From an uncultured Lachnospiraceae bacterium (GTDB taxonomy: Bacteria; Bacillota; Clostridia; Lachnospirales; Lachnospiraceae): a stretch of DNA of 39,978 nucleotides. This document shows positions 128 through 31,760 of this stretch, in pieces. Every line of letters begins with the position of its first letter. Position 1 is the stretch's first letter. The stretch covers positions 1-39,978 of the forward strand of contig CANRGB010000015.1 of NCBI GenBank assembly GCA_947630005.1, in the 5' to 3' direction. The notes beneath the pieces are model-generated. The model searched no databases, was not told the DNA's origin, and saw only the letters and a program-made list of their open reading frames with translations. The translations under genes were made by a program, and so were the position numbers.

Positions 128-916
128 TCAAAACTTTGCGTCATGCAGCCAGAGGTACCTCTCGTCCTCGCAGCGGTCTGTCTGCAGCCAGGGATTGCCG
201 TCCAGGTGACGGATCATCCAGCAGGTGTACATCTCGAATCCGGGCGCCACGGCCTGCGGATGAAGCTCCCCGCCGGGAATTGCCGAGAAACTGTTGTTCA
301 CGCTCTTGAATACGCGGTCGCCCACGAAGCTCGCGCCGAAGCCTTCCGGCCTGTCAAATTTGAACAGGTAGGTCTCCGGCTGCGGATGTCTGTGCGGCAG
401 ATATCCGGACCAGTTGCCTCTGTCGTTGAGTACCTCGCCGAGCACCATATTGGAATCCGGATTGATGTCGTGATCGAAGATCGTGTTCACGCGGCGGTTT
501 GCCACATCACCGAATTTTCCTTTTGCCCCGGAGTAGATCCACGGAGCGTCCTCAGGCGCGTACAGGCGGCTCTCAAACGCTTTCTCATTCTTTGTGCACT
601 GCACCAGAATCTCGGATTCGGTCTCCGCCTTCACACTCACCGTCTTGCCGCCGCTCACATGCACGCACCACGGACCTTCCGTAAATACGTCCTTTCTGCT
701 GACGGTCTCGCTCTTGCCGTCCCACGCGTAAGTAATCTTTCCGGACAGGAGAAGAACCGCGATCTCCTCGCCCTCTCTGCAGAATGTGCGCTCCTCGCCG
801 GCTTTCATGGCGTACATGCGGATGTCCATCATCATGGCCGCATAGTCATTGTCATAAGTGGTGAGTATCATTTCGCCGTTCGCGTCATACTGCGGATACC
901 CAAAAACCTCTGCCAT
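128..916 (-). CDS. iolB: 5-deoxy-glucuronate isomerase IolB
   Basis: IolB converts 5-deoxy-D-glucuronate to 2-deoxy-5-keto-D-gluconate, the step after ring opening by IolD in cytosolic myo-inositol breakdown. The 262-residue protein has the expected family length and the bicupin signature HRHPQPETYLFKFDRPEGFG near residues 177-196, whose histidines and glutamate hold the metal. The C-terminal region ends in YLWLHDAKF. The start at 916 is preceded by AAGGAGGACTGTAAA; this ribosome site overlaps the iolD stop codon 14 bp upstream, so the two genes are translationally linked. Kinase (IolC) and aldolase (IolJ) genes are not seen and may lie beyond the left edge. Confidence 0.95.
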   Translation of the reverse strand: MAEVFGYPQYDANGEMILTTYDNDYAAMMMDIRMYAMKAGEERTFCREGEEIAVLLLSGKITYAWDGKSETVSRKDVFTEGPWCVHVSGGKTVSVKAETESEILVQCTKNEKAFESRLYAPEDAPWIYSGAKGKFGDVANRRVNTIFDHDINPDSNMVLGEVLNDRGNWSGYLPHRHPQPETYLFKFDRPEGFGASFVGDRVFKSVNNSFSAIPGGELHPQAVAPGFEMYTCWMIRHLDGNPWLQTDRCEDERYLWLHDAKF

Positions 917-929
917 TTTACAGTCCTCC

Positions 930-2861: not shown

Positions 2862-2950
2862 AGTTTTCAGTCTCCTTTCCTTTTTCCTTGCATTGATGAT
2901 ATCAGGGTCAAGAGATATTCTCACCCTGTAATACAGGTTCTTTCCTCTTT

Positions 2951-3007
2951 CTTTGTGTGCTTTGTGCGTGCTGTATAAAAATTCCAAAAAGTACTGTTTG
3001 CACACAA
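2951..3007 (-). promoter_or_regulatory. Probable iolD promoter region with paired half-sites
   Basis: Between the lacI stop and iolD lies an AT-rich stretch with a possible -10 TATACA on the minus strand. It is flanked by TTGTGTGC (2953-2960) and its exact inverse GCACACAA (3000-3007), with a further TTTGTGCGTGC at 2961-2971. These resemble the GCGTG/CACGC half-sites found before lacI and the URO-D gene, so a LacI-family repressor may bind on both sides of the promoter. The -35 element is not clear. Confidence 0.45.
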
Positions 3008-3032
3008 TTTTATTCTGTTTTGCCCGCCAAGT

Positions 3033-4052
3033 TCAGATATTGTACTTCGTTTTGATATTAATATCCGTATAGCGGTATTCTTTCCCCGCCGGCTGCTTCT
3101 TTACCAGCATATCCGCCAGAATGCAGGGCGGCTCATATCCCTGGACATATCCGTCCTGATCGATCAGGAAATCCGCAATATCCGTCTCAAGAGCCGCTTT
3201 GTTCCGCGGTGTGAGATCATAAATGATAACGTACGGCCGCTTCTGGATCTGCAGCTTCCCGAAGGCTCTGGCGATCCCCGCCTGCCCGGCGGAAACCACG
3301 AGGATCCCGCTCAGATCCGGCACGCTCTGCATCGTATTTACGATGGCTTTCTCCACCTCATCCGCGTCGTCATAGCTGCCCTGCACGCCGACCGGTTCCA
3401 GCCCCGGATAAGACTTCTTGATCTCATCCAGGAAGCCGTCCACGCGCCGGTTGTCCACGTTATTGGTGAAAAAGCCCGTGATTACAAGGATTTTCCCCAC
3501 GCCTCCCGTCAGCATCGCCATGAGTCCGGCTGCGGTCCGGCCGCTTTTCTGATTGTCCATCCCGACGAAGCAGCATCGTCTGGTCCCCACAATATCCGAA
3601 TTAAACGTCACAATCAGGATCCCTGATTCGTCAGCCAGCCGGTTCAGCTTCTCCCTTATCTTCTCGCTGTCCACCGGCATGATCGCAAGTCCGCGGATCC
3701 CCTTCTGTACAAGCGCGTCGATCGCTTTCAGCTGCTCATCCTCGTCTACGGAAACACCCTCCTCAACAAAAACCTCGACGCCCCGGTCCTGCAGCTCCGC
3801 CTTTGCCTGCGCGATTCCCCGGTTGATTTCCAGCATGAAGGAAGATCCCGCGAGCTGGGTGACAATCCCTATCTTAACCTGTCTGACGTCCCGTTTCTTC
3901 CGCTCCTTCTGCACATATCCCATCTCATCGGCGATGCGGAAGATTCTCTCCGCCACTTCAGCCTTGATACGCCCCCGATGGTTCAGCGCTCTGTCGACCG
4001 TTCCGCGGGATACGCCGGCACGCTCCGCAATCTGCTGTATTGTTACTGCCAT
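3033..4052 (-). CDS. LacI-family transcriptional regulator of the inositol cluster
   Basis: A 339-residue repressor-type protein. Residues 3-22 form the LacI helix-turn-helix (TIQQIAERAGVSRGTVDRAL), followed by the hinge region and a periplasmic-binding-protein-like sensor domain from about residue 62. The GVSRGTVDRALN variety belongs to LacI members with the sugar-type ligand fold. It sits between the IolG-like gene and iolD on the same strand, so it most likely senses an inositol or inositol derivative and controls this cluster. The start at 4052 has only a weak upstream site (GGGGCGATGG). Its own promoter has TTGCGTG/CACGCAA arms overlapping the -35, suggesting autoregulation. It is not the DeoR-type IolR of Bacillus subtilis. 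Confidence 0.88.
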   Translation of the reverse strand: MAVTIQQIAERAGVSRGTVDRALNHRGRIKAEVAERIFRIADEMGYVQKERKKRDVRQVKIGIVTQLAGSSFMLEINRGIAQAKAELQDRGVEVFVEEGVSVDEDEQLKAIDALVQKGIRGLAIMPVDSEKIREKLNRLADESGILIVTFNSDIVGTRRCCFVGMDNQKSGRTAAGLMAMLTGGVGKILVITGFFTNNVDNRRVDGFLDEIKKSYPGLEPVGVQGSYDDADEVEKAIVNTMQSVPDLSGILVVSAGQAGIARAFGKLQIQKRPYVIIYDLTPRNKAALETDIADFLIDQDGYVQGYEPPCILADMLVKKQPAGKEYRYTDINIKTKYNI

Positions 4053-4070
4053 TCATTCCATCGCCCCTTT

Positions 4071-4082
4071 GATCACGTGATC
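4071..4082. promoter_or_regulatory. Perfect 12-bp palindrome in the lacI leader
   Basis: GATCACGTGATC is a perfect palindrome 19 bp upstream of the lacI start and about 27 bp downstream of its -10 box. A related TGATCACGC occurs at 4233-4241. Position and symmetry fit an operator for autoregulation, but no binding protein can be named from sequence. Confidence 0.4.
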
Positions 4083-4108
4083 GCCACAGCTTTCTGTGCC
4101 ACAAGGAT

Positions 4109-4151
4109 AATATAGCATATTTTTTATAAACACGCAATACATTTTTGCGTG
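4109..4151 (-). promoter_or_regulatory. lacI promoter with overlapping inverted-repeat operator
   Basis: On the minus strand a -35 TTGCGT (4132-4137) and -10 TATATT (4109-4114) are separated by exactly 17 bp. The -35 lies inside an inverted repeat, CACGCAA (4131-4137) and TTGCGTG (4145-4151), spacer 7. More half-sites TTGCGTG follow at 4208-4224. A protein on this site would block polymerase, consistent with autorepression. Confidence 0.6.
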
Positions 4152-4180
4152 CTTTTACGAATTTTTTCTTATTTTCCTTT

Positions 4181-4200
4181 AAAAACCCATGGGTATTTTA
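4181..4200. other. AT-flanked palindrome downstream of the IolG-like gene
   Basis: ACCCATGGGT (4185-4194) is a perfect 10-bp palindrome flanked by an A-run and a T-rich run, so it could be a weak terminator after the dehydrogenase gene or another protein-binding site. The stem is short. Confidence 0.3.
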
Positions 4201-4261
4201 CAGTATTTTGCGTGTTGTTTGCGTGCTTTATTGTGATCACGCACAAATCTCTCTCCCGTTT

Positions 4262-5278
4262 TCAGTCAGCCTTCAGCATCTCGCCAGACAGGAACGATTC
4301 TCTGCACCAGAACGCGATCGTCGTGGATCTTGTGCCGTCGTATACATTCGGACTTGCCTTGCGCTCCTGCGCAACGCAGTCACAGAATGTTTCCATCTCC
4401 GTGATATACGCGTCATGCCAGCGGGTGATGAAATCCTGATAGCATTCGCGGCAGACGCCATGCTCGTTCATGACCTCCACCAGAGAGTCGGCCGGAACTC
4501 CCGCGATGCGCAGCGTCCCGCGCGTACCGATAATCTCCGTTTCGACATGGGCGCCGTGCGCGGCCGCTCTTCCCGCGAAGAGAAACGCCATGGCGTCGTT
4601 TTCGCACTGCATCAGGCAGGAGACGTTGTCCCCGTCGTCCCAGTCCTTATACTGTTTGAATTCAAAACAGCCGCCGATCGCCCAGAGTTTTTTCGGCTCG
4701 GAACCGGTCAGCCAGCGGATCAGATCGATATCGTGGATGGACATGTCGATAAACTGTCCTCCCGAACGGGGAGCGTACTCCAGCGTCCCCTGGATGATCG
4801 AAATCGGATCCTGCGAATAGCAGCGCACCAGAATCACGTCGCCGATCTCGCCGCGCTCCATTTTCTGTTTCGCTATGCGGTAAGAGTGGTCATAGCGGCG
4901 CATGAAGCCAAGCATGAATACGAGCTCCGGATGCGCCTCCACGATTTTTTCCGTCTCTTTGCACTTCTCCGGGGTATCCGCAAGCGGCTTTTCACAGAAC
5001 ACATGCTTCCCCGCCTCCATCGCGATGCGGATCATCTCCGGATGGGACGCCGTGTTCGTGACGACCGCGACGGCCTCCACCTCCGGATCCGCGCACAGCT
5101 GCACCGGATCGCTGTAGACGCGGTCAACGTTCAGTTCCTCCGCGACTTCCTTTGCGCGCGCAAGATTGCCGTCGCAGATTGCGGTAAGCGCCGCTCCGGG
5201 CACGCGGTTTGCGATATTGCACGCATGCTCATAACCAAGACGGCCGACGCCGATGATTCCGATTTTCAGTTTTTTCAT
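4262..5278 (-). CDS. Gfo/Idh/MocA-family oxidoreductase, IolG-like inositol dehydrogenase
   Basis: A 338-residue NAD-dependent sugar/inositol dehydrogenase. The Rossmann loop is GVGRLG at residues 10-15. Lys97 in EKPLA, Asp178 and His182 in the block DMSIHDIDLIRWL match the catalytic Lys, Asp and His of IolG in order and spacing. It probably oxidises a ring hydroxyl of myo-, scyllo- or a modified inositol to an inosose, feeding the IolD/IolB steps downstream. The start at 5278 follows AAGGAGAGTTCATT. It lies between the URO-D-family gene (218 bp upstream) and the LacI gene (209 bp downstream). I leave the symbol blank because several isomer-specific paralogues share these motifs. Confidence 0.85.
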   Translation of the reverse strand: MKKLKIGIIGVGRLGYEHACNIANRVPGAALTAICDGNLARAKEVAEELNVDRVYSDPVQLCADPEVEAVAVVTNTASHPEMIRIAMEAGKHVFCEKPLADTPEKCKETEKIVEAHPELVFMLGFMRRYDHSYRIAKQKMERGEIGDVILVRCYSQDPISIIQGTLEYAPRSGGQFIDMSIHDIDLIRWLTGSEPKKLWAIGGCFEFKQYKDWDDGDNVSCLMQCENDAMAFLFAGRAAAHGAHVETEIIGTRGTLRIAGVPADSLVEVMNEHGVCRECYQDFITRWHDAYITEMETFCDCVAQERKASPNVYDGTRSTTIAFWCRESFLSGEMLKAD

Positions 5279-5451
5279 AATGAACTCTCCTTATCGTCTC
5301 TTCTAATAATAATCCCAAACCGGGCCGGAACAGGCAGGCCCTCTTCCTTTCCGCCTTTCGGATCTGTGCAGCGCCGCATCATCCGTCCGCCGGCCGCATT
5401 TTTTGCCAACAGCCATTTTTCCTGCATGGGCCTGCGCGTAAAGGGCACAGC

Positions 5452-5482
5452 GGCGCCGGCCCCTCTGACAGGAACCGGCGCC
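5452..5482 (-). terminator. Strong stem-loop after the URO-D-family gene
   Basis: GGCGCCGG (5452-5459) and CCGGCGCC (5475-5482) pair over 8 bp with a 15-base loop, about 14 bases past the URO-D stop. No T-run follows on the minus strand, so it is more likely an RNA-stability or partial-termination element than a classical terminator. It could lower expression of the dehydrogenase and later genes relative to the URO-D gene. Confidence 0.45.
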
Positions 5483-5496
5483 ATACCTCATTTTGT

Positions 5497-6753
5497 TTAT
5501 TTGTCTCCGTTAAATTCCTTGATCGCATCCACCATCGCCACGATATTCGGGATCGGCGTGTTCGCCTGGATGTTGTGGATAGTATTGCACACGTATCCGC
5601 CGTCCTTCGAGAAAATATCCAGTCTCTCGAGAACCTGCTCGCGTACCTCTGCCGGCGTTCCGAACGGAAGAACCTTCTGCGTGTCCACGCCGCCGCCCCA
5701 GAACACGATGTCCTTGCCGTAGGTATCTTTCAGCCTCTGAGGATCCATGCCTTCCGCGGAGCACTGTACCGGATTCACCGCGTCAAAGCCGCCCTCGATC
5801 AGATACGGGAGAATCGGGAAAATTCCGCCGCAGCAATGCTTCAGCGTCACCCACGTCGTGTTCTGATGGATCCAGTCGTTCATCTTCTTATAATAAGGCA
5901 TGTAGAATTCCTTGAACACCTTCGGATCAATCATCGGTCCTCTCTGGGTTCCGAAATCCGCGCCGCAGATGAACATGATATCAATGTCCGATCCGAACGC
6001 TTCCCAGTATTTCTTGAAGTTCTCGATCGCGATATCCGTGCCGCGTTCAAACACTTCCTTTACATAATCCGGGTAAAGGAGCGGAGCCATGTACCATTCG
6101 GAAATATCGCGGATTCCCTTCGGATGCTTGAGGTTCGGACCCGGAATATTGTTGGCGTCGCCAAGGCCCATGTAAGCGGGAGCAACCTGAATCGCGCGGC
6201 CGCCGTCTTTCACTTCCGCCAGAACCTTCTTATGGAATGCGATCTGCTCGTCGCTGACCAGCATGTAATCCTCCACATTGTCCGCGGGATCCGCCTCGTC
6301 CTCGTCAAACTCCGGCGTACGGGTCAGATTGTCGAAATAATAGCCGCCTGCCGGCATATGTCCGCTCGGAGCTACCGTGGTGTCTCCTTCCGGATACACA
6401 TAATAGCCGCCCTTGCCGTCGTCCGTGACCGTGCAGTTGGAAGGAATCAGCACCGAAATGCCGCGGTATTCCCACTCTTTCCAGTCCGTGTTGATGTGGC
6501 CGTACGTATCGCCGTAATTATAAAGCTGCTGTACGTCGCATCCCATGCAGTCCGCCAGATCCGGCTCGACAAAAGCCGTCATCGTGGACATGTCGTTGAT
6601 CTTCGGAAGGCGCTTCTCAAGTCCGTAATAGTCTCTGAGGTCCTTCATCACGGTCGCGTTGATCATGGAACAGCTCATTCCGCCGAAATCCACCGCAACT
6701 TTGTCCGGCTGTTTGTGCGCAAAGGTAGTTCTGATTCTCTCTTTGGATGTCAT
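5497..6753 (-). CDS. Uroporphyrinogen decarboxylase (URO-D)-family protein, methyltransferase-like
   Basis: A 418-residue TIM-barrel protein of the URO-D superfamily, clearly not HemE: the N-terminal region differs and heme genes are absent nearby. Family landmarks are HCCGGIFPILPYLIEGG at residues 306-322, NPVQ at 327-330 and HNIQANTP near 393-400. His306, Cys308 and Cys389 match the H-x-C...C arrangement, with about 80 residues between the cysteines, that binds catalytic zinc in the corrinoid methyltransferases MtaA and MtbA. As first gene of an inositol cluster it could demethylate O-methyl inositols, but no corrinoid protein is visible, so this is inference. The start at 6753 follows AAAGGAGAGGACACT. 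Its promoter carries a LacI-type operator. Confidence 0.85.
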   Translation of the reverse strand: MTSKERIRTTFAHKQPDKVAVDFGGMSCSMINATVMKDLRDYYGLEKRLPKINDMSTMTAFVEPDLADCMGCDVQQLYNYGDTYGHINTDWKEWEYRGISVLIPSNCTVTDDGKGGYYVYPEGDTTVAPSGHMPAGGYYFDNLTRTPEFDEDEADPADNVEDYMLVSDEQIAFHKKVLAEVKDGGRAIQVAPAYMGLGDANNIPGPNLKHPKGIRDISEWYMAPLLYPDYVKEVFERGTDIAIENFKKYWEAFGSDIDIMFICGADFGTQRGPMIDPKVFKEFYMPYYKKMNDWIHQNTTWVTLKHCCGGIFPILPYLIEGGFDAVNPVQCSAEGMDPQRLKDTYGKDIVFWGGGVDTQKVLPFGTPAEVREQVLERLDIFSKDGGYVCNTIHNIQANTPIPNIVAMVDAIKEFNGDK

Positions 6754-20172: not shown

Positions 20173-21561
20173 TCAAAAAGCAAGCAGTTTTTCACAAAAG
20201 TTACTAAACGATCCCAAAACCGTCTGAGCCGACGAAGACAGGCCTCCCATGGCGGAATTTATGGCGTCCAGAGGCTCCGGTTTCTCCCCGGTTTCAGATT
20301 CCTCTTCCTGATCTTCGGATTCTTCCTCCTGATCTTCGGATTCCTCCTCCTGCGTTTCGGACTCTTCTTCCTGATCTTCGGATTCCTCCTCCTGCGTTTC
20401 GGACTCTTCCTCCTGGTCTTTTGCTTCTCCTTCATAGATCGTCGCGCGCAGTCTCTGGATTGTCTCCTCAAAATCCGGAATCAGCATCTCGTTCTGCGAG
20501 ACGAAAAGTCCGTCGTAGGGTACGCGCGACTCTTCAATCTCATACTTAAGATACTGCGGCAGTCCGCCGGCCAGCTTCAGGAGCTGAAACATGTCGATAT
20601 TATGCTCCACCAGCATCAGGGAGCTTCCAGCGATCTTCATCAGTTCCGCGGTGTCCAGATCCTTCATCTCGGCCAGAAGCGCCTGCAGCACGTCCCTCTG
20701 GCGCTGCGTGCGCTGATAGTCGTTATTCCCGACAAAGCGGATACGCATATAGGCCACCGCCTGCATGCCGTTCAGCTTGTACGTGCCGCCTTTTTCCAGA
20801 AAGTCCTTCTCGGACTTCATGCTGACCAGGTAGCCGTTCAGGATCGGGATCTCATCGTCGGTGACCGTGATCTCAACGCCTCCCACGATGTCGATCAGCT
20901 CCGACATTGTTTCAAAATCAACGACCGCGTAGTTGTCGATCTTAATATCGTAATTGGATTCGAGCGTGGCGGCCAGCGTTTCGGCCCCGCCCACCGCGTA
21001 GGCGTAATTCAGTTTGTGCACCCCGCGCTCCGGAATATCCGCGTACAAATCGCGCATGAACGAAGTCAGGATGATCTTTTTAGCCGCGGTATTGATCGTC
21101 GCCACGATCATAACGTCAGAATTGCCGTTCCAGCTCTCGTCACGCCGGTCCGTGCCGATCAGGAGGAGATTGTATACGGCATCTTCCCCGGCAAGAGGCC
21201 GGCCGCTCTGCCAGTCGTACGTTTCCTGCTCCGTCTCTGCCTCGGTCTCCGTTTCGGTCTCTGCTTCCGCTTCCGTTTCCGTTTCGGTCTCCGTCTCCGG
21301 TTCCGTTACCGCCTCGGTCTCCGGGGATCCGGACGGCGCGGCGCTGTTCTGCTCATTTTTCATCTGAGGGTCGTCCCATTCCTCGATGTCAAGGATAAAA
21401 TCTCCGGGATTCCCGATCTGAATATCTATATCCTGCTGAATCTCTATGGCCTCCGCCAAAACCGGTCCTTTCACGCCTGATGACAGCAGAAAGATCAGAG
21501 CTGCCGCGCTTCCTCTTACAAATAATCTGCCGTATGATCTGTTTGTGAATAATCCGCCCAT
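20173..21561 (-). CDS. LytR-CpsA-Psr (LCP) family cell-wall polymer ligase with acidic repeat tracts
   Basis: LCP enzymes attach teichoic acids or capsule to peptidoglycan outside the membrane. The 462-residue protein has an N-terminal signal-anchor (about 13-38), a Glu/Thr-rich tract (81-113), the LCP domain (about 128-340) and an acidic tail of 7-residue repeats (381-424). Catalytic-domain landmarks are NLLLIGTDRR (131-140), LTSFMRDLYADIP (165-177), NYAYAVGG and RIRFVGNNDYQRTQRQRDVL (273-292), with the arginines that bind the polyprenyl pyrophosphate. The start at 21561 has a somewhat distant AGGAGA. It has its own promoter and terminator. The polymer it attaches is unknown. Confidence 0.9.
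   Translation of the reverse strand: MGGLFTNRSYGRLFVRGSAAALIFLLSSGVKGPVLAEAIEIQQDIDIQIGNPGDFILDIEEWDDPQMKNEQNSAAPSGSPETEAVTEPETETETETEAEAETETETEAETEQETYDWQSGRPLAGEDAVYNLLLIGTDRRDESWNGNSDVMIVATINTAAKKIILTSFMRDLYADIPERGVHKLNYAYAVGGAETLAATLESNYDIKIDNYAVVDFETMSELIDIVGGVEITVTDDEIPILNGYLVSMKSEKDFLEKGGTYKLNGMQAVAYMRIRFVGNNDYQRTQRQRDVLQALLAEMKDLDTAELMKIAGSSLMLVEHNIDMFQLLKLAGGLPQYLKYEIEESRVPYDGLFVSQNEMLIPDFEETIQRLRATIYEGEAKDQEEESETQEEESEDQEEESETQEEESEDQEEESEDQEEESETGEKPEPLDAINSAMGGLSSSAQTVLGSFSNFCEKLLAF
20290..20421 (-). repeat. 21-bp repeat encoding acidic heptads in the LCP C-terminus
   Basis: Six copies of a 7-codon unit, SEDQEEE or SETQEEE, at residues 381-424. The DNA copies are close to identical, so copy number can change by slippage without losing frame. 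Confidence 0.85.
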
Positions 21562-23541: not shown

Positions 23542-25137
23542 TCATTTACCGCATACTCCCCCGGTCTGTTCCCCGCTTCCCAGCAGCGGCAGCGTCAGCC
23601 AGAATTCCACGCCTTCGTCCATATTCCGCGCGCCGCACTCGCCGTGATGGATCTCCGCGATCTTCTTTACAAAGTAAAGACCAAGCCCCGCGTTCCGGAA
23701 CTCCCTCAGATTCGTCCGGCTGCTCCCGGATTCTTTATAAAAGCCTCTCCAGATCCGGCCCAGCTCCCCGGGCGGTATAGAAGAACCCTCGTTGTAAACG
23801 CACAGCTTCGCGCTGCCGTTCTCACGCGAAAGCGCAAGCCGGATCTTTTTCCCCTGCGGCGTATGCTGAAACGCGTTCATCATGTAATTGTTCACCGCCT
23901 GCTCCAGATACGGGCGGTTTCCATAGACAAGGCAGCCCTCCTCGATCTCAGTTTCCAGTGTAATCTGATTCCGCCGGAACAGCGCGTCGTATTTCTGCGC
24001 CATGTATTCTGCCATGCCGGAGAGATCCGTCTCGCCCAGTTCCATCTCCTCGATCTGATGCTCCATGATCGTCAGGTCGAGCAGATTGCCGACCAGCTTC
24101 GACATTTTGTCGATCTCTTCCCTTATGGATGTAAAATAATAGTCCTGGTCGATCCGGTCCCCCATCGACTGCAGCATTTCCATCTGCCCGGATATAACGG
24201 CAAGCGGAGTCTTCAGCTCATGCGAGACGCTCGCCACAAATTCTTCCCTGGCCTTCCGGTTCTGTTCGCCGCCTTCCTTCTTTTCATATTTCTCCGGCAG
24301 CGCCTCTCTTGCATCCCCGCCGGCTTCTCCCCCGACGTTTGGCATCTGTCCGGCGGAAAGCTGCCTGCTGCCGCCTGGTTCCTGTCCGCCGGGAAGCTGT
24401 CCGCCGCCCTGTATCTGTCCTCCGGGAAGCTGTCCGCTGCCGCCCGGCTCCTGTCCGCCGCCGTATTTCGCGCCGTACAGCTCCTTCTCATACGTCCGCA
24501 GCGGAACGAATATCAGCTTCAGCCCCCTGACGCGGAGCAGCAGATACCCCAGCAGAAACATAAGCCCGGCAGCCGCGCACAGATACTGCGTTGTATAATG
24601 AATCGCCGCGCCGATTGAACGGACCACCAGCCGGATATAAACATAGTAAATCCGCTTCGTTCCTCCCTGTTCCTGCGCCTCCGTCTCCAGATCCTCCCCC
24701 TGCACAAGAAGTCCGCGCAGGCGGATCGAGCGGAAATTTTTGTTTTTGCGTATATAAATATGAGGCTTTTCCTGAAAATCATCCTTGTACGGAGCCATAT
24801 ACCGCTCAATGATATGCTCCTGCTGAACCTGCGTTTCGCTTCTGTTTGTATAAACGGGATGAAATTCGTCGTCTGTGATCAGGATCTCAAACCGGCTGTC
24901 CTCCAGGCTCTGCAGAACCTCCTCGTCTTCTTCGTCCCCCTCGCTGATCTCTGCCAGATTCACCTCGGAAAACACCCGATACGCCTCTTTCATCTCTTTT
25001 ATTTTCATCGCGGTATAAAAGGGATACGCGAAGACAGCGTAAAACAGGATCACAAAAAATACGGCTGCCAGCAAAAACGCCGCGGGGCCCGGAAAGAATT
25101 TCCCGTCCCCGCCGCGTGACCGTCCAAATATTTTCAT
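23542..25137 (-). CDS. Sensor histidine kinase, PhoR-like
   Basis: A 531-residue membrane kinase. Transmembrane segments at about 17-40 and 184-203 enclose a 140-residue extracytoplasmic sensor. Instead of a recognisable HAMP domain the second segment leads into a Gly/Gln/Pro-rich repeat linker (226-273). The HisKA domain has the phospho-acceptor His306 in SVSHELKTPLA, and the ATPase domain has NYMMNAFQHTPQG and NAGLGLYFVKKI. It overlaps the response-regulator gene by 4 bp (ATGA), so they form one unit. The Pho-box-like repeats and Na/Pi symporter directly downstream suggest phosphate starvation as the signal, which is inference. Confidence 0.9.
   Translation of the reverse strand: MKIFGRSRGGDGKFFPGPAAFLLAAVFFVILFYAVFAYPFYTAMKIKEMKEAYRVFSEVNLAEISEGDEEDEEVLQSLEDSRFEILITDDEFHPVYTNRSETQVQQEHIIERYMAPYKDDFQEKPHIYIRKNKNFRSIRLRGLLVQGEDLETEAQEQGGTKRIYYVYIRLVVRSIGAAIHYTTQYLCAAAGLMFLLGYLLLRVRGLKLIFVPLRTYEKELYGAKYGGGQEPGGSGQLPGGQIQGGGQLPGGQEPGGSRQLSAGQMPNVGGEAGGDAREALPEKYEKKEGGEQNRKAREEFVASVSHELKTPLAVISGQMEMLQSMGDRIDQDYYFTSIREEIDKMSKLVGNLLDLTIMEHQIEEMELGETDLSGMAEYMAQKYDALFRRNQITLETEIEEGCLVYGNRPYLEQAVNNYMMNAFQHTPQGKKIRLALSRENGSAKLCVYNEGSSIPPGELGRIWRGFYKESGSSRTNLREFRNAGLGLYFVKKIAEIHHGECGARNMDEGVEFWLTLPLLGSGEQTGGVCGK
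24319..24462 (-). repeat. Gly/Gln/Pro repeat linker in the histidine kinase
   Basis: Residues 226-273 are built from imperfect copies of GGQ(E/L)PGGS and GQLPGGQ; the DNA repeats CCGGGAAGCTGTCC-type units. Such tracts vary easily in length. Confidence 0.7.
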
Positions 25138-25814
25138 ACCTCATCTCCTCCAAACAGATAACCCGCTCCGTACACGGAACGGATGTAGCCGCACTCTTCC
25201 CCGAGTTTCCGGCGGAGCTGCTTTACCATCGTATCCACAGTGCGGATATCCCCCACATAGTCGTATCCCCAGACGGCGTCCAGTATGGTTCCTCTGTTCA
25301 GGACAATGTTGCTGTGCTCTATGAAATAACAGAGAAGCTCGTATTCTTTGCGCGTCGTCTCCACATACCGGTCCTTCCAGTAAACCTTCTGGGCCTCCAG
25401 CTCCACTATGATATTTCCGAATTCCAGATATCTTCTGAGCTTCCCGGCTCGCTTCAGAAGCGCCTCGATGCGGAGCCTGACAAGCTCCAGCGTATAAGGC
25501 TTCGTGATGTAATCATCCGCTCCCCGCTCAAAACCGTTCATCTGATCCTCCACCGAAGACCGTGCCGTCAGCATGATCACCGGCGTGTCCAGCACTCTCC
25601 GCACTTCCCGCAGCACCTCATATCCGTCCAGATCCGGCAGCATGACGTCGAGAAGGATCAGATCGATCTTTCCCTGCGCCTGATAAAAAAGCTGAAGCGC
25701 CTCATGCCCGCTCTCCGCCGTCAAAGTCTCATAATCCTGAAGCCTCAGATAGTCTTCCAGCGTCCTCGACAGTTTTTTTTCATCCTCTACAATTAAGATC
25801 CTGTTTTTTTTCAT
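25134..25814 (-). CDS. OmpR/PhoB-family response regulator, PhoP-like
   Basis: A 226-residue DNA-binding regulator. The receiver domain has the acidic pair in VEDEKKL, phospho-acceptor Asp in LILLDVMLPDLDG, Thr in MLTARS and Lys in DYITKPY. The C-terminal winged helix (about 130-224) has RGTILDAVWGYDYVGDIRTVDTMVKQLRRKLG. I prefer the ATG at 25814 because AAGGAG lies upstream and MKKNRILIVEDE is where the family begins; an upstream in-frame ATG at 25874 adds unconserved residues. With the kinase it likely controls the Na/Pi symporter through the 11-bp repeats at 23497-23524. Confidence 0.93.
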   Translation of the reverse strand: MKKNRILIVEDEKKLSRTLEDYLRLQDYETLTAESGHEALQLFYQAQGKIDLILLDVMLPDLDGYEVLREVRRVLDTPVIMLTARSSVEDQMNGFERGADDYITKPYTLELVRLRIEALLKRAGKLRRYLEFGNIIVELEAQKVYWKDRYVETTRKEYELLCYFIEHSNIVLNRGTILDAVWGYDYVGDIRTVDTMVKQLRRKLGEECGYIRSVYGAGYLFGGDEV

Positions 25815-26125
25815 AGACTGCTCCTTCTGTTTCAACCGCGGCACCCTGGTATTTTTTACAATTCTCCTTCTCATACTAAACGGGAAATGTGATGAAATTA
25901 TGGAAATTTAATCATTTGGTAAACAGTTCAGTAATATTTTCGTAATATTTTTTATTTTTACGTAATTTTAATCCGCCCCATATTTCTCACATATTCCTCT
26001 GCTATGATAATAACCGTGTTCGATTCTGCGCGAAACGCACGTTCCCGTCCGGAGGAATGTTTCCTTTGGGCGGCGCGCAAAACGGCAGAATGGGGTATAT
26101 TAAAAATATATTAAAGGAGAACGGC
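25815..26125. promoter_or_regulatory. Divergent intergenic region between the regulator and sulfation operons
   Basis: This 311-bp AT-rich stretch holds no gene. Rightward, an extended -10 TGCTATGAT (26000-26008) precedes sulfotransferase 1. GTAATATTTT occurs at 25931-25940 and 25942-25951, 11 bp apart, with GTAATTTT at 25962; an 11-bp period suits an OmpR-type regulator. Leftward, only a weak -10 (TATGAG near 25875) is visible for the regulator gene. Confidence 0.5.
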
Positions 26126-27397
26126 ATGTCAACACTTTATCTGCATATAGGCCCCCCGAAAACGGGAACGACGACGATCCAGAATTTCCTCTGGGAAAAC
26201 CGGGAGGTTCTTGAAGCTCACGGCATCTGCTTTCCGGATCCAGGCTATCGCTACCCGGAAGCGGACTATCACCGCAACGGGCGCTTTCTGACGAAGCTCC
26301 GGCCTCTGGAAGGACAGGAGGTTTCCCATTTTGAAGAAGGCATTGACAAGCTCGGGGAACTTGCCGGCCGGTACGACTCGATCATTCTTTCCGATGAAGG
26401 AATCTGGAAAGACAGCATACGAAAGAAACGGCTCTGGCCCAGACTTGCCGCGAAACTGAAAGAAAAGCAGATAGACCTGCGCATCATCATGTATCTGCGC
26501 CGCCAGGATCTCTGGGCACAGTCTTACTGGGCGCAGAAAGTAAAAGTCGGAAAGACCACGCTCGGTTTCCGGGAATACCTGGAAGCCATGCAGGAAGCCG
26601 GCTATCCGCTGGACTACTGCGCCTATATGGACATGCTGGCCGGACTGTTCGGAAAGGACTCACTGATCATCCGGATCATGGAAAAGGAACAGTTCCGGGG
26701 AGCCGAACACTCTCTTCTGTCCGATTTTCTGGATATTTTCGGCCTGTCACTGTCCGACGGCTTCGCACAGCAGCAGGATGTCCTCAATCCGAAGCTTGGC
26801 GGCACTTATCTGGAGCTCAAGCGCACGCTGAACATGCTGCCCTGGCTCCAGGAAAACAGAAGCAATGTCTTTATCGGCTCGATCATGAAAATACAGGACC
26901 TGAATCCTTTCCGCTATGAGCTTAGCGGGCAGTCATTCTTCGATCCCGGAGAGCAGAAGCTGTTCCGCGATTCCTTCGCCGAATCCAACCGGCGTCTGGC
27001 CGAAGAATATCTCGGCCGCGAAGACGGCGTCCTTTTCCTGGAAGACGAAATTAATCTGCCGTCCGCGCCGGTAAAAGACAGCGATCTGCTTCACGATGTC
27101 ATTCTCGTCTACGGAACAATCCTCCAGACCATCATGCAGCACAACCGGGAGAGAACCGCGGAACAGAAGCAGACGGTCCGCGCAATCCGAAAAGACCTGA
27201 ATTCTCTCTCCCGTGAGGCCGGCAAACGTCAGAAAAGCCTGGATTCTTTTTCCAGGGAGATCGCGGAGATCCGGAAAAATATGGACTCTTTTTCCAAGGA
27301 GATCAAAGGAATCCGGAAAAGCATGGAGGCAAATTCTTTCCGTGGACGGATCCGAAGAGCCCGAAAGCGCCTGAAGGCGCCGCTCCATTCGTCCTGA
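26126..27397 (+). CDS. PAPS-dependent sulfotransferase-family protein 1 with repeat coiled-coil tail
   Basis: A 423-residue cytosolic protein. The N-terminus LYLHIGPPKTGTTTIQNFLW carries the phosphosulfate-binding loop PKTGTTT; MYLRRQDLWAQSYWAQ (about 141-156) carries Arg and Ser expected to bind the 3'-phosphate of PAPS. The core runs to about residue 330. The tail has three 14-residue repeats (358-399, such as LDSFSREIAEIRKN) predicted as coiled coil, then a basic end RGRIRRARKRLK that could contact membrane or nucleic acid. The ATG at 26126 follows AAAGGAGAACGGC. cysD and cysNC downstream make its donor. The acceptor is unknown; a surface glycan is the leading guess, a small steroid or lipid the alternative. 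Confidence 0.85.
   Translation: MSTLYLHIGPPKTGTTTIQNFLWENREVLEAHGICFPDPGYRYPEADYHRNGRFLTKLRPLEGQEVSHFEEGIDKLGELAGRYDSIILSDEGIWKDSIRKKRLWPRLAAKLKEKQIDLRIIMYLRRQDLWAQSYWAQKVKVGKTTLGFREYLEAMQEAGYPLDYCAYMDMLAGLFGKDSLIIRIMEKEQFRGAEHSLLSDFLDIFGLSLSDGFAQQQDVLNPKLGGTYLELKRTLNMLPWLQENRSNVFIGSIMKIQDLNPFRYELSGQSFFDPGEQKLFRDSFAESNRRLAEEYLGREDGVLFLEDEINLPSAPVKDSDLLHDVILVYGTILQTIMQHNRERTAEQKQTVRAIRKDLNSLSREAGKRQKSLDSFSREIAEIRKNMDSFSKEIKGIRKSMEANSFRGRIRRARKRLKAPLHSS
27197..27322 (+). repeat. 42-bp repeats encoding the coiled-coil tail of sulfotransferase 1
   Basis: Three in-frame 14-codon units (LNSLSREAGKRQKS, LDSFSREIAEIRKN, MDSFSKEIKGIRKS), the last two closest in sequence. The tail has grown by internal duplication. 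Confidence 0.8.
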
Positions 27398-27422
27398 CTT
27401 TCCGTTCTGCATTGTCCGCGGG

Positions 27423-27481
27423 CCGCGGGGCAGCGCGCCCCCCGTTTCCCGCGGCTTCTGGTCAAACGGGGGATTTCCCCC
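27423..27481 (+). terminator. GC-rich stem-loops after sulfotransferase 1
   Basis: CCGCGGG (27423-27429) pairs with CCCGCGG (27448-27454), and GGGGG/CCCCC with an ATTT loop lies at 27468-27481. There is no clear T-run, so they may only partly end transcription before the internal cysD promoter. Confidence 0.35.
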
Positions 27482-27510
27482 TTGCCTATCTGCATGATTT
27501 CAGTTATAAT
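27482..27510 (+). promoter_or_regulatory. cysD promoter
   Basis: TTGCCT (27482-27487) and TATAAT (27505-27510) are 17 bp apart, a strong promoter 165 bases before cysD. cysD, cysNC and sulfotransferase 2 can thus be expressed apart from sulfotransferase 1. Confidence 0.75.
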
Positions 27511-27581
27511 AGCGGGAGTTTCAGCCGCCTCCGGAAGCTGCGCGCGTATCTGCCCCAAACATGCTCCCGGACGGCGCGGCG

Positions 27582-27639
27582 GGCAGACAAATCAAAAACC
27601 GGTCTGCCGTTCACTACAAATATGCCGGATCAGGCAGAC
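27582..27639 (+). promoter_or_regulatory. Leader of cysD with mutually exclusive hairpins
   Basis: GTCTGCC (27602-27608) can pair with GGCAGAC either upstream (27582-27588) or downstream (27633-27639). The two stems exclude each other, as in attenuators and riboswitches. No T-run follows either stem; the second is 21 bases before the ribosome site. I see no S-box or T-box core. Confidence 0.4.
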
Positions 27640-27674
27640 ACACAATCCACGATATTTTATAAGGAGTACTTTGT

Positions 27675-28577
27675 ATGAGTAATATGACCCACCTTGACAA
27701 GCTGGAAGCGGAAGCCATTTACATCATGCGCGAAGTCGCCGCTGAATGTGAGAAGCCGGTGATGCTCTATTCCATCGGCAAGGATTCCTCCGTCATGCTT
27801 CATCTCGCCTTAAAGGCTTTCTATCCGGAAAAGCCGCCTTTTCCTTTTCTGCACGTAAATACAACCTGGAAATTCCGGGAAATGATCGAATTCCGGGACC
27901 GCATGGCGCAGAAGCACGGCATTGAGATACTGGAATACATCAATGAGGAAGGGCTGGCGCAGGGCATCAACCCGTTCGATCACGGCTCCGCCTACACGGA
28001 TATCATGAAAACGCAGGCCCTCAAACAGGCGCTCGACAAATACGGCTTTACCGCCGCTTTCGGAGGCGGCCGCCGCGACGAGGAAAAATCCCGCGCCAAG
28101 GAGCGCATCTTCTCGTTCCGCAACGCAAGCCACGCCTGGGATCCCAAGAACCAGCGTCCTGAAATGTGGAAGCTGTACAACACAAAAGTCAACCAGGGCG
28201 AGGAGATCCGCGTCTTTCCGATCTCAAACTGGACCGAGGCGGATATCTGGCAGTACATCCGCCAGGAGAATATCGAGATCGTTCCGCTCTACTTCGCCAA
28301 AGAACGCCCGTTTGTCCGCCGGAACGGCAACATCATCATGATCGACGACGACCGCATGAAGCTGCTGCCCGGTGAGAAGGTCGAGCACGGGAAGATCCGT
28401 TTCCGCACGCTCGGCTGTTATCCGCTGACCGGCGGGATCGAAAGCGAGGCGGATACGCTCGACGCGATCATCAGCGAAACCTTGGGGGCGGTGTCCTCCG
28501 AGAGGACCAGCCGCGTGATCGACAGCGACAGCGGCTCGGCGAGCATGGAAAAGAGAAAGAGGGAGGGATACTTTTAA
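27675..28577 (+). CDS. cysD: Sulfate adenylyltransferase subunit 2 (ATP sulfurylase small subunit)
   Basis: CysD forms APS from ATP and sulfate, driven by GTP hydrolysis in its partner CysN. The 300-residue protein is full length: the PP-loop [13 protein letters not shown] at about residues 34-46, [21 protein letters not shown] near 126-146, and the C-terminal [20 protein letters not shown], which is a close match to the family. The start follows AAGGAG. The cysNC start comes one base after its stop, so the two are coupled. No reductase gene (cysH, apr) is nearby. Confidence 0.96.
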
Positions 28578-28578
28578 T

Positions 28579-30414
28579 ATGAACAGTCTTCTCAAATTCA
28601 TCACCTGCGGAAGCGTGGACGACGGAAAATCCACGCTGATCGGCCACATGCTCTATGACGCCAAGCTTCTCTTCGCGGATCAGGAGCGCGCCCTTGAGCT
28701 TGACAGCCGCATGGGGTCCCGCGGCGGGGCGATCGACTATTCCCTGCTTCTTGACGGACTGATGGCGGAGCGCGAACAGGGCATCACGATCGACGTCGCC
28801 TACCGGTATTTCACCACGGAAAAACGCTCTTTCATCGTCGCGGATACCCCGGGCCATGAAGAATATACGCGCAATATGGCGGTCGGCGCCTCGTTTGCCG
28901 ACCTCGCGGTCATCCTCGTCGACGCCACGCACGGCGTACTCGTACAGACGCGGCGCCACACGCGCATCTGCTCCATGATGGGCATCGAGCACTTTGTCTT
29001 TGCCGTCAACAAGATGGATCTGGTCAACTACGACGAGAACCGCTTCCGCAAAATCTCAAAGGATATCCTGCGCATGGTGAAGGAATACGACTACCGGAGC
29101 CTGCAGATTCTCCCCGTCTCCGCGACGGAGGGCGACAACGTCACCAACCGCTCCACGCGCATGCCGTGGTTCCGCGGGGAGGCGCTGCTGGAATATCTTG
29201 AAAACATCAATACGGACAAGGTTTCCACGGAGGAAGGATTCTGCATGCCCGTGCAGAGAGTGTGCCGTCCCGACTATACGTTCCGCGGCTTTCAGGGAGA
29301 GATCGCGTCCGGCGTGATCCGCGTGGGAGACGAGATCACAACGCTCCCCTCCAATGAGAAAGCGGTCGTAAAGCGGATTCTCGACGCCGGAAAGGACGTG
29401 GAATCTTCCGATACCGGACATGCGGTCACCCTTGCGCTTGACCGGGAGGTGGATGTCTCCAGAGGCTGCGTCCTCACGAAAGACGCGCAGCTTACCGTCG
29501 GCAGCCTGTTCACCGCGCGGCTCCTCTGGATGGACGACTCCCATCTGGTCGCGGGCCGGAATTACTACCTCAAGCTCGGCACGAAGATGATCCCCGCCGT
29601 CGTGATGCATATCCACTGCAAGATCGACGTCAATACGGGCAGCGAGATTCCCGCCGACACCACCTACAAAAATGAGATCGTCGACTGCGATATTTCCGTC
29701 TCCGACCGGATCGTCTTTGACGAATTTCAGAACAACCACACGCTGGGATCTCTGATTCTGATCGACCGGATCACAAACATGACCTCCGCCTGCGGCATCA
29801 TCACAAACGTCCTGCGTCGCGCCGACAACCTGAGGTGGCAGGAGCACGACATCACGCGCGAACTGCGCGCGCAGCAGAAAGGCCAGAAGCCCGTGACGAT
29901 CTGGATGACCGGCCTTTCCGGATCCGGCAAATCCACGCTCGCCAATGAGCTGGAAAAGCGGCTCGTCGCGCTCGGCCGGCATACCATGCTTCTTGACGGA
30001 GATAATATCCGCATGGGACTGAACAAGAACCTCGGATTCCGCGAGACCGACCGGATCGAAAACATCCGGCGCATCGCCGAGGTCGCCAAGCTGATGAACG
30101 ACGCCGGACTGATCACGATCACCGCGTTCATCTCGCCCTATCTCCGCGACCGGCGCAGCGCCCGTGAGATCATCGGGGAGGACAGTTTTATCGAAGTTTA
30201 TGTCAGCACGCCTCTTGCGGAATGCGAGCGGCGCGACGTGAAAGGCCTTTACAAAAAAGCCCGCGCAGGCGAGATCTCTTACTTTACCGGCATTTCCAGC
30301 CCCTACGAGGTTCCGAAAAAGCCGGAGATCACCGTGGATACCAGCACGATGCCGCTCGACGACTGTGTCGACGCCATCCTGAAACTGCTCGGGGAAACGC
30401 AGGATACAAACTAA
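28579..30414 (+). CDS. cysNC: CysN-CysC fusion: ATP sulfurylase GTPase subunit and APS kinase
   Basis: A 611-residue bifunctional protein. Residues 1-430 are the CysN GTPase: P-loop GSVDDGKS (11-18), effector RMGSRGG region, EREQGITIDVAYRYF, DTPGHEEY and NKMD. Residues 437-611 are APS kinase: P-loop GLSGSGKS (445-452), LDGDNIRMGLNKNLGF and ISPYLRDRR with the active-site serine. With CysD it makes PAPS from sulfate and two nucleotides. The same NodQ-like fusion occurs in organisms that sulfate glycans. The gene begins 1 bp after cysD and ends 27 bp before sulfotransferase 2. Confidence 0.96.
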   Translation: MNSLLKFITCGSVDDGKSTLIGHMLYDAKLLFADQERALELDSRMGSRGGAIDYSLLLDGLMAEREQGITIDVAYRYFTTEKRSFIVADTPGHEEYTRNMAVGASFADLAVILVDATHGVLVQTRRHTRICSMMGIEHFVFAVNKMDLVNYDENRFRKISKDILRMVKEYDYRSLQILPVSATEGDNVTNRSTRMPWFRGEALLEYLENINTDKVSTEEGFCMPVQRVCRPDYTFRGFQGEIASGVIRVGDEITTLPSNEKAVVKRILDAGKDVESSDTGHAVTLALDREVDVSRGCVLTKDAQLTVGSLFTARLLWMDDSHLVAGRNYYLKLGTKMIPAVVMHIHCKIDVNTGSEIPADTTYKNEIVDCDISVSDRIVFDEFQNNHTLGSLILIDRITNMTSACGIITNVLRRADNLRWQEHDITRELRAQQKGQKPVTIWMTGLSGSGKSTLANELEKRLVALGRHTMLLDGDNIRMGLNKNLGFRETDRIENIRRIAEVAKLMNDAGLITITAFISPYLRDRRSAREIIGEDSFIEVYVSTPLAECERRDVKGLYKKARAGEISYFTGISSPYEVPKKPEITVDTSTMPLDDCVDAILKLLGETQDTN

Positions 30415-30441
30415 CGAAACAGAAAATCAAAGGAGGACGAT

Positions 30442-31722
30442 ATGGCAACCGTTTATCTGCATATAGGTCTCCCGAAAACCGGATCTACCTCGATCCAGTA
30501 TTTCGTATGGGATAACAGGGATGTTTTTGAGAAACTCGGCATCTGCTATCCGCTGTTCAGCTACAGGTATGAGATGGTATCCTTCCGGCGCAACGGGCAT
30601 TTTCTTTACGCCCCCTATATCAATGAGGACGGCAGCCGGAACAATACCATCCCCGCTCCCGAATACGAGGAAGGGCTGAACCAGCTGGAAGAGCTCGGCA
30701 AAAAATATGACCGGATCCTGCTCACGGACGAGGGGCTCTGGTGGGGCAGCCATCCCCGCAAAAATTTCTGGGAACAGCTGAAAGAAGATATGAACCGACG
30801 CGGTCTCGACGTCAAGATCATCGTCTATCTGCGCCGCCAGGATTCCTGGCTCGAATCGCACTGGGCGCAGAATATTAAGGACGGCCGGACCTGCCTGACC
30901 ATGCATGAATATATCGGCTACATGACAAAGCGGGGATATCCGCTCGACTACAACGCGTATATCAGCAAGCTCGCCGATCTGTTCGGAAAAGACTCCGTAT
31001 ACGTGCGGATCCTTGAGCGCGGACAGTTTAAGGGCGCGGAGCATACGCTTCAGTCCGATTTTCTCGATATTTTCGGACTGTCCCTGTCCGACGGCTTCAC
31101 TGTGAAGCAGGATGTGTACAACACAAAGTTCGAGGGCAATTATCTGGAAATAAAGCGCCTGATGAACCTTGTCCCCGAGCTTCGGACAAGGCAGCATATC
31201 CTCTTCCAGGGCATTTCGGAGATGGACGAACAGAATCCTTCCAAACGGGATTACAGCCGCTACTCTTTCTTCGCTCCGGAAGACCGGATGGATTTCCAGA
31301 AACAGTTTGAGGAATCCAACCGGCAGTTAGCCTCCGGGTTTCTGGGCCGTGAGGACGGGATTCTCTTCTATAACCAGCCGAAGGATCTGCCGGAACTGCT
31401 CATCAACGAGAACGATTTTCTGCGCGATTCGATCCTCCTCTGGGGGAAAATGTTCGATATTGTCCAGACGCAGCAGCAGACGCTGAAAGAACAGCTGTCC
31501 GAGGAGCGGCAGAATGCCAAGAAGCTGAGAAGCGAGCTCAAAGCCGAACAGCAGAAGCACAGCAAGGAGATCAAAGAGCTGAAAAAGGAACTCAAAGCCG
31601 AACAGCAGAAGCGCGGCGCGTCCGACAAGGAGCTGCGAAAAGATCTCAAGGCGCTCAGAGAAGACGTGTTCTTCTACCGTCTCAAGCGCAAGATCCGGCA
31701 CATCAGGGGCCTGGATCAGTAA
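30442..31722 (+). CDS. PAPS-dependent sulfotransferase-family protein 2 with coiled-coil tail
   Basis: A 426-residue paralogue of sulfotransferase 1. It shares LYLHIGLPKTGSTSIQYFVWDNR with the phosphosulfate loop PKTGSTS, VYLRRQDSWLESHWAQ for the 3'-phosphate, and SDFLDIFGLSLSDGF further on. The last 100 residues differ: a long Lys/Glu/Gln coiled coil with a duplicated KELKAEQQK unit, then a basic end. The start follows AAAGGAGGACGAT and lies 27 bp after cysNC, so it is in the same transcript. Different tails with a shared core suggest different acceptors or partners. The acceptor is not known. Confidence 0.85.
   Translation: MATVYLHIGLPKTGSTSIQYFVWDNRDVFEKLGICYPLFSYRYEMVSFRRNGHFLYAPYINEDGSRNNTIPAPEYEEGLNQLEELGKKYDRILLTDEGLWWGSHPRKNFWEQLKEDMNRRGLDVKIIVYLRRQDSWLESHWAQNIKDGRTCLTMHEYIGYMTKRGYPLDYNAYISKLADLFGKDSVYVRILERGQFKGAEHTLQSDFLDIFGLSLSDGFTVKQDVYNTKFEGNYLEIKRLMNLVPELRTRQHILFQGISEMDEQNPSKRDYSRYSFFAPEDRMDFQKQFEESNRQLASGFLGREDGILFYNQPKDLPELLINENDFLRDSILLWGKMFDIVQTQQQTLKEQLSEERQNAKKLRSELKAEQQKHSKEIKELKKELKAEQQKRGASDKELRKDLKALREDVFFYRLKRKIRHIRGLDQ
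31534..31612 (+). repeat. 54-bp repeat in the coiled-coil tail of sulfotransferase 2
   Basis: A 25-base segment starting GA(G/A)CTCAAAGCCGAACAG recurs at 31534-31558 and 31588-31612 with one difference, encoding ELKAEQQK twice. Confidence 0.8.
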
Positions 31723-31728
31723 AAACGG

Positions 31729-31760
31729 GCCGGATTCCCAAAAGAATCCGGCTTTTATTT
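31729..31760. terminator. Terminator of the sulfation operon
   Basis: GCCGGATTC (31729-31737), loop CCAAAA, GAATCCGGC (31744-31752), then TTTTATTTTATT. The perfect 9-bp stem ends the rightward operon; its second half abuts the stop codon of the small leftward gene, so it may serve both strands. Confidence 0.9.

Follow-up and report, generated by a model that had tools for sequence, protein, structure and literature searches.

The cassette combines genes for PAPS synthesis with two putative, divergent sulfotransferase genes

We analyzed a 39,978-base stretch of DNA from an uncultured Lachnospiraceae bacterium (GCA_947630005.1, contig CANRGB010000015.1), hereafter the window, which is the entire contig G000:C15 of an assembly of 3.2 Mb in 222 contigs that is 82.8% complete (G, C and L numbers denote genomes, contigs and loci). 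Positions 26126 to 31722 carry a cassette of four genes on the + strand, ST1-cysD-cysNC-ST2, which is flanked on both sides by genes on the - strand and combines the synthesis of 3′-phosphoadenosine 5′-phosphosulfate (PAPS) with putative sulfotransferases (STs). The cysD gene (27675..28577, preceded by AAGGAG) encodes the small subunit of ATP sulfurylase (TIGR02039, E 2.9e-145), and the cysN-cysC fusion (cysNC; 28579..30414) encodes the GTPase subunit joined to an adenosine 5′-phosphosulfate (APS) kinase domain (NF004035, E 4e-254), the latter of which occupies residues 438-587, about 29890-30339 (PF01583, E 3.7e-67). The CysD, CysN GTPase and APS kinase domains all exceed curated cut-offs and thus identify a CysD-CysNC complex for PAPS synthesis. 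The outer genes, ST1 (26126..27397, 423 aa) and ST2 (30442..31722, 426 aa), are paralogues, both assigned to a divergent PAPS-type ST family from motif, profile and fold evidence. The original prediction, made from the letters of the window, had called the same cysD, fusion gene and two flanking ST paralogues, and our analysis confirms them.

Only 1 base separates cysD from cysNC, 27 bases lie between cysNC and ST2, and 277 bases between ST1 and cysD. The gene order is identical, and at an identical place, in two sister genomes (L003, which is the same as L058, and L056), as found on carrying out the comparison of related genomes proposed with the original prediction. The closest named loci are two uncultured Lachnospiraceae contigs of metagenome-assembled genomes (a single contig scan, 2 close loci). 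Lachnospiraceae is a family common in guts, and this, together with the names of the isolates, leads us to infer a gut origin of this organism. No gene for a PAPS/APS reductase, a sulfite reductase or a sulfate transporter was seen beside the cassette among the open reading frames (ORFs) of the window and the ten proteins scanned, which agrees with the earlier reading.

ST1 and ST2 carry sulfotransferase motifs in a sulfotransferase-like fold

A longer ST1 frame of 446 aa opens at 26057. Because 26126 is preceded by AGGAG and its Met is the invariant first residue in an alignment of 24 ST sequences, including both STs of the window, we regard 26126 as the right start. ST1 and ST2 are 50% identical across residues 1-317. 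Their N-terminal loops, PKTGTT in ST1 (26156-26173) and PKTGST in ST2 (30472-30489), contain K12 and T13, which are invariant in 24/24 sequences; we take this element to be the 5′-phosphosulfate-binding loop with the Lys of PAPS-dependent sulfotransferases. A second loop, YLRRQD...S in ST2 (about 30826-30858), holds R131 and S139, likewise invariant in all 24 sequences, and an Arg and a Ser eight residues apart form the 3′-phosphate-binding motif of SULT enzymes. The same stretch aligns, with a weak score, with its counterpart in 3rnl. When the predicted ST fold was compared with known structures, sulfotransferases ranked first (3rnl, next human heparan N-sulfotransferase), and five of the 24 aligned sequences match PF00685 at E<=0.05, the best at 0.0041. 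At the C-terminus, ST1 has a coiled-coil-like, basic tail and ST2 a predicted 100-residue helix (residues 323-422) with a basic end.

On the other side of the balance, the ST model is weak (predicted local distance difference test, pLDDT, 63), neither protein exceeds the curated cut-off of any Pfam or NCBIfam family model, and relaxing the threshold to E<=10 brings out no Pfam sulfotransferase match for either of them, as far as the filters of HMMER let such a match through. A phmmer search of ST2 against PDB sequences led nowhere. No Pfam family is assigned, and the kinship to sulfotransferases rests on fold and motifs. Despite the absent Pfam match, these support the assignment of ST1 and ST2 as predicted PAPS-type sulfotransferases, the identity that the original prediction had given to both flanking proteins.

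The APS kinase fusion is set apart from sulfate reduction

To place the cassette among its relatives, we collected 48 fused CysNC loci other than the window, 33 from the same genus and 15 from other genera, which comprise the places above the NF004035 cut-off and one more that is truncated at a contig end (G029:C21, L175). These were compared with 18 Lachnospiraceae loci with CysN below the fusion cut-off (7 genus and 11 family places). The aprA gene was found within 6 kb of none of the 48 fused loci vs 17 of the 18 non-fused ones, and none of the 17 aprA-adjoining cysN loci has an APS-kinase signature. These results indicate that the APS kinase, the step committing APS to PAPS, keeps company with the STs rather than the reductase. 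L146 was included on account of its aprA, and as a contig end truncates it, its CysN may or may not be fused; the count without it is 16/17. The sole non-fused locus without aprA is L182, where a separate cysC adjoins chrA. APS-kinase motif 1 occurs in 34/49 fused loci (window included) and 1/18 of the others, and motif 2 in 46/49 and 1/18. Left out of the non-fused set were the genus places G166, G167 and G170, near which coordinates also put aprA, and five of the 16 family places that scored under the cut-off (G020, G021, G029:C2, G108 and G143:C15), G021 matching almost the whole fusion model; L076, with a cut CysNC, and L143, the aprA contig of the window's own genome, which lacks cysD and cysN, were left out as well. 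The gene maps were made by a simple longest-ORF picker, which can pick antisense frames (e.g. L028 and L048), and contig ends truncate many of the stretches.

The sulfate-reduction unit of Lachnospiraceae consists of a solute-binding protein (SBP) with CysT-CysW-CysA, aprA, a ferredoxin-like aprB, cysD, a kinase-less cysN and sulfite reductase. CysN in the aprA operons of L074, L078 and L184 has a C-terminal extension of ~140-170 residues without a Pfam match.

The genome of the window itself encodes a sulfate ATP-binding cassette (ABC) transporter and aprA at the end of contig C66, and sulfite reductase on C166. A second cysD was not found in this assembly at its 82.8% completeness, the sole match to PF01507 (PAPS reductase/CysD domain) being the cassette CysD. 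The cassette CysDN could thus also supply APS, and one might suppose that cysDNC serves mainly sulfate assimilation with the STs as incidental neighbors, all the more as CysNC exceeds the cut-off in every one of the 12 genus members with aprA (p 0.02). We consider this very unlikely. The APS reductase route uses APS, not PAPS, and needs no APS kinase; the kinase-less cysDN, not the fusion, adjoins aprA in the loci above; and 22 of the 34 CysNC genomes of the genus lack aprA at the threshold used. In addition, aprA is at the end of C66, at the point where cysDN comes next in relatives, and the contig break after it most simply explains the absent second cysD.

Assimilation of PAPS through cysH was considered and rejected, as the incomplete assembly contains no cysH match. 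PF01507 matches are found in 38/47 genomes of the genus; besides CysD these include weaker ones. Four of the weaker PAPS_reduct-domain matches, at G160:C61, G165:C53, G181:C105 and G187:C115, are in frames of 589-824 aa, and the window's own genome has none. The cassette is also unlike an assimilatory operon, in which an APS/PAPS reductase stands with the activation genes. A PAPS-fed reductase encoded elsewhere, one half of the outcome named beforehand as fatal to the sulfation proposal, was not encountered, since the reductase found in this incomplete assembly is of the APS type. The proposal that the PAPS serves sulfation is thus supported, with the correction that the genome does hold aprA, a sulfate ABC transporter and sulfite reductase elsewhere, a route that uses APS.

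CysNC and the sulfotransferase family occur together

Among the 47 genomes of the genus, including that of the window, 34 have CysNC above the cut-off, 33 have the ST family and the two groups share 31 genomes (a manual count; p 1.4e-6, Fisher tests on these genomes being uncorrected for relatedness). In 150 genomes of the family, one per genus with our own included, CysNC was detected in 15 and the ST in eight, all eight of which are within the 15 (p 1.2e-9). In six of the seven other ST genera, no more than 6 kb separates an ST from CysNC (in G109 by coordinates), G103 being the exception. A class-level scan found STs in 3/391 genomes, own included. In two other genera with fused CysNC, a Pfam-positive ST adjoins it (L171 and L172), and a CysQ-like phosphatase is near fused CysNC at L167 (Pfam: Inositol_P) and L169 (by eye). 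Within the genus, 19 of the 33 fused loci carry 1 to 4 STs within 6 kb of cysD-cysNC. Four results support the use of the PAPS in sulfation: the separation of fused CysNC from aprA, this co-occurrence across 150 genera, the ST fold and motifs, and the lack of a cysH match in the incomplete assembly of the window's genome.

At L071 (3439-4733, +), one ST of the array is split in two frames as if decaying, and the two pieces make up two of the four STs counted there. At L168 (G082:C13, another genus), an arylsulfotransferase (PF05935; 3323-5299, -), a member of a PAPS-independent family, ends a cluster of cysD, cysNC, ChrA, a response regulator and a histidine kinase.

In comparisons with the sister genomes, the ratio of nonsynonymous to synonymous substitution rates (dN/dS) was 0.14-0.29 for the STs and 0.01-0.04 for CysD and CysNC; among the neighbors it was 0.19-0.24 for the histidine kinase and 0.05-0.22 for the others, with dS near saturation. 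By these values the STs are genuine genes, and purifying selection acts on them, more loosely than on the PAPS enzymes but not uniquely so.

Surface polysaccharide is the likeliest acceptor

In four congeners (G156, G159, G160 and G163), STs are located apart from cysDNC in capsule-type clusters with glycosyltransferases and a flippase, and this context favors a surface glycan as the acceptor. By Pfam, L131 encodes a Wzx-type flippase, a UDP-sugar dehydrogenase and a pyruvyl transferase, and L132 a Stealth protein; the rest of the capsule-type genes at these two loci and all of those at L130 and L133 were assigned by eye.

Teichoic-type genes (CDP-glycerol glycerophosphotransferase, TagD-like or LicD) are within 6 kb of cysD-cysNC in 15 of the 33 genus loci, although at two of these (L049 and L050) the match has only 27-31% identity to the reference. 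An acceptor that is specifically a teichoic-acid-type glycerophosphate polymer is nonetheless unlikely in our judgement, because the marker gene of this teichoic-type locus is present in 34/47 genomes regardless of STs, and the copy in the genome of the window is not near the cassette but on contig C41. We rejected the teichoic-type neighbor locus as proof of the acceptor on account of this missing association; it may be merely a shared insertion place. A somewhat better, still minor, chance falls to the same PAPS-ST chemistry acting on a small molecule or lipid, such as host or diet sterols or phenols, instead of a glycan. Some STs have no adjoining glycan gene, and a gut Bacteroides with the same combination of PAPS genes and an ST (BT_0416) is reported to sulfate cholesterol (PMC9417993).

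Several observations count against the sulfation of a surface polymer by this cassette. No glycan assembly or export genes, nor any other acceptor pathway, lie beside it in the window; at L125, L127 and L129 the ST adjoins a LysR-type gene without any glycan gene around, and other congeners, judged by gene sizes, show the same arrangement. The teichoic-type marker is found in 24/33 genomes with and 10/14 without the ST (p 1). No ST of this family is within 6 kb of cysD-cysNC at 14 of the 33 genus loci; 11 of these genomes have STs elsewhere, and in three (G157, G165 and G166) none was detected. Seven of the 15 CysNC genera in the 150-genus sample lack this ST family. Finally, the fast change of the STs says little in favor of a variable target, since the histidine kinase reaches a dN/dS as high as theirs. 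With these points taken into account, we consider it probable that the cassette serves the biosynthetic sulfation of the cell's own products. The most likely target is a polymer of the surface or wall, with surface polysaccharide as the likeliest acceptor.

A ChrA-family protein may import sulfate in related cassettes

A gene of the ChrA (chromate-transporter) family is located within 6 kb of 15/48 fused loci, 10/33 in the genus and 5/15 in other genera; the copy at L062 matches PF02417 with E 6e-37. Sulfate ABC genes (SBP, CysT and CysW) stand beside three fused loci (L027, L167 and L169), all lacking ChrA. At L023 there is an NMT1-type ABC system, and L173 has ChrA together with a lone ABC ATPase, sugar-type by eye. 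Of the 17 aprA loci, 12 have ABC genes or parts of them, two have ChrA, and none has both. At the two with ChrA (L180 and L183), it adjoins aprA-cysDN, and the surrounding 6 kb contain no sulfate ABC genes. This exchange of ChrA with sulfate ABC genes suggests that the ChrA branch in the cassettes imports sulfate. The window operon has no ChrA; the genome's long-kind copy is on contig C54 (PF02417, E 1e-35) with no ST adjoining. To call the operon self-contained, as was originally proposed, is thus too strong.

Regulatory and flanking features

Divergent from ST1 lie an OmpR-type response regulator (25134..25874, -; PF00072, PF00486) and its partner sensor histidine kinase (23542..25137, -; PF00512, PF02518). 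At L055, where the cassette is at another chromosomal place, the regulator is 75% and the kinase 42% identical to the window pair, and within the cluster of L168 the values are 48% and 41% (the kinase over 228 aa). However, a pair with 42% and 36% identity adjoins the aprA operon of L179, and matches at the remaining loci have 20-35% identity, so the link between the pair and the cassette is only suggestive. Regulation of the cassette by this response regulator is possible but unproven.

A hairpin of 11 pairs resembling an intrinsic terminator directly follows ST2 (31727..31754, +), which is not proof of a terminator as 14 such sites occur in the region against 7.3 expected. From a promoter-like site between ST1 and cysD (27482..27510, +), cysD-cysNC-ST2 may be transcribed separately; such sites are not above chance (4 observed vs 3.4 expected). 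Rfam gave 0 matches on the window. About 4.5 kb from the cassette, a LytR-CpsA-Psr protein with Glu-rich repeats (20173-21561, -; PF03816) is a possible polymer-to-wall ligase. Genes at 128-6753 (-) look by eye like a myo-inositol catabolism cluster (IolB-, IolD-, LacI- and Gfo/Idh-like) with a UroD/methyltransferase-like gene.

Proposed pathway and comparison with known systems

The computations establish what the genes encode, which fold and motifs the STs carry, that the cassette is separate from the reduction operons, and that the STs co-occur with CysNC and have multiplied; as to activity, acceptor, import by ChrA and membrane binding, we propose the following. Sulfate would enter via a transporter, in many relatives a ChrA-family protein of the same cassette. 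CysD-CysN would convert sulfate and ATP to APS, which the fused CysC would phosphorylate to PAPS. ST1 and ST2 would then transfer the sulfuryl group to an acceptor that the cell makes itself, most likely a wall polymer or surface polysaccharide that offers hydroxyl or amino groups. Such a polymer would be assembled at the membrane, and the two enzymes may be retained there by their basic, coiled-coil-like C-termini. The presence of two STs would imply that two different positions or sugars receive sulfate. We propose more tentatively, at somewhat less than even chances, that Lachnospiraceae possess a modular, movable cassette, composed of cysD-cysNC, an exchangeable importer that is often ChrA, sometimes a two-component regulator and 1-4 Pfam-invisible STs, which writes variable sulfation on capsule or wall polymers; Clostridia would then have sulfated surface glycans, and ChrA would natively import sulfate.

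If so, a sulfated Lachnospiraceae coat could mimic the sulfate of host mucin and glycosaminoglycans, nourish neighbors that possess sulfatases and bind cationic defence peptides. Through the exchange between ChrA and sulfate ABC genes, what the ChrA family does natively can be tested directly. Among the matches listed (titles and abstract starts), the open-licence literature contained neither a description of this Lachnospiraceae cassette nor a sulfated polysaccharide from gut Firmicutes.

In rhizobia, NodP-NodQ-NodH comprises CysD and a CysN-CysC fusion serving one ST that acts on lipochito-oligosaccharide. The window cassette shares the fusion and its probable service to an ST but has two STs, and no lipochito-oligosaccharide pathway was seen in it. 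In Bacteroides thetaiotaomicron, BT_0412-BT_0416 combine a putative sulfate importer and PAPS genes with an adjacent sulfotransferase, and were proposed to supply PAPS for sulfation (PMC9417993). Ours likewise has PAPS genes beside predicted STs, but it is in a Firmicute, its STs are Pfam-negative, its relatives have 1-4 copies and often ChrA, and the Bacteroides acceptor is cholesterol. A 2026 paper describes bacterial sulfated polysaccharides as reported only from cyanobacteria (PMC13390465); the marine bacterium Cobetia marina is a contrary case, in which PAPS genes, a sulfate permease and sulfotransferases are joined to capsule genes and the determined capsule structure is sulfated (PMC11766843). 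The window cassette similarly couples PAPS genes with STs, but unlike this marine system with its ABC-exported capsule it has no adjoining capsule operon. Predicted STs also occur in a Gram-positive polysaccharide cluster, wps-1 of Actinoplanes missouriensis, the sulfated product of which is predicted only (PMC13390465); in contrast to the Lachnospiraceae cassette, this cluster is actinobacterial and has STs of two known families inside a Wzx/Wzy cluster. What is new relative to these systems is the host phylum, the Pfam-negative and multiplied STs, and the ChrA partner.
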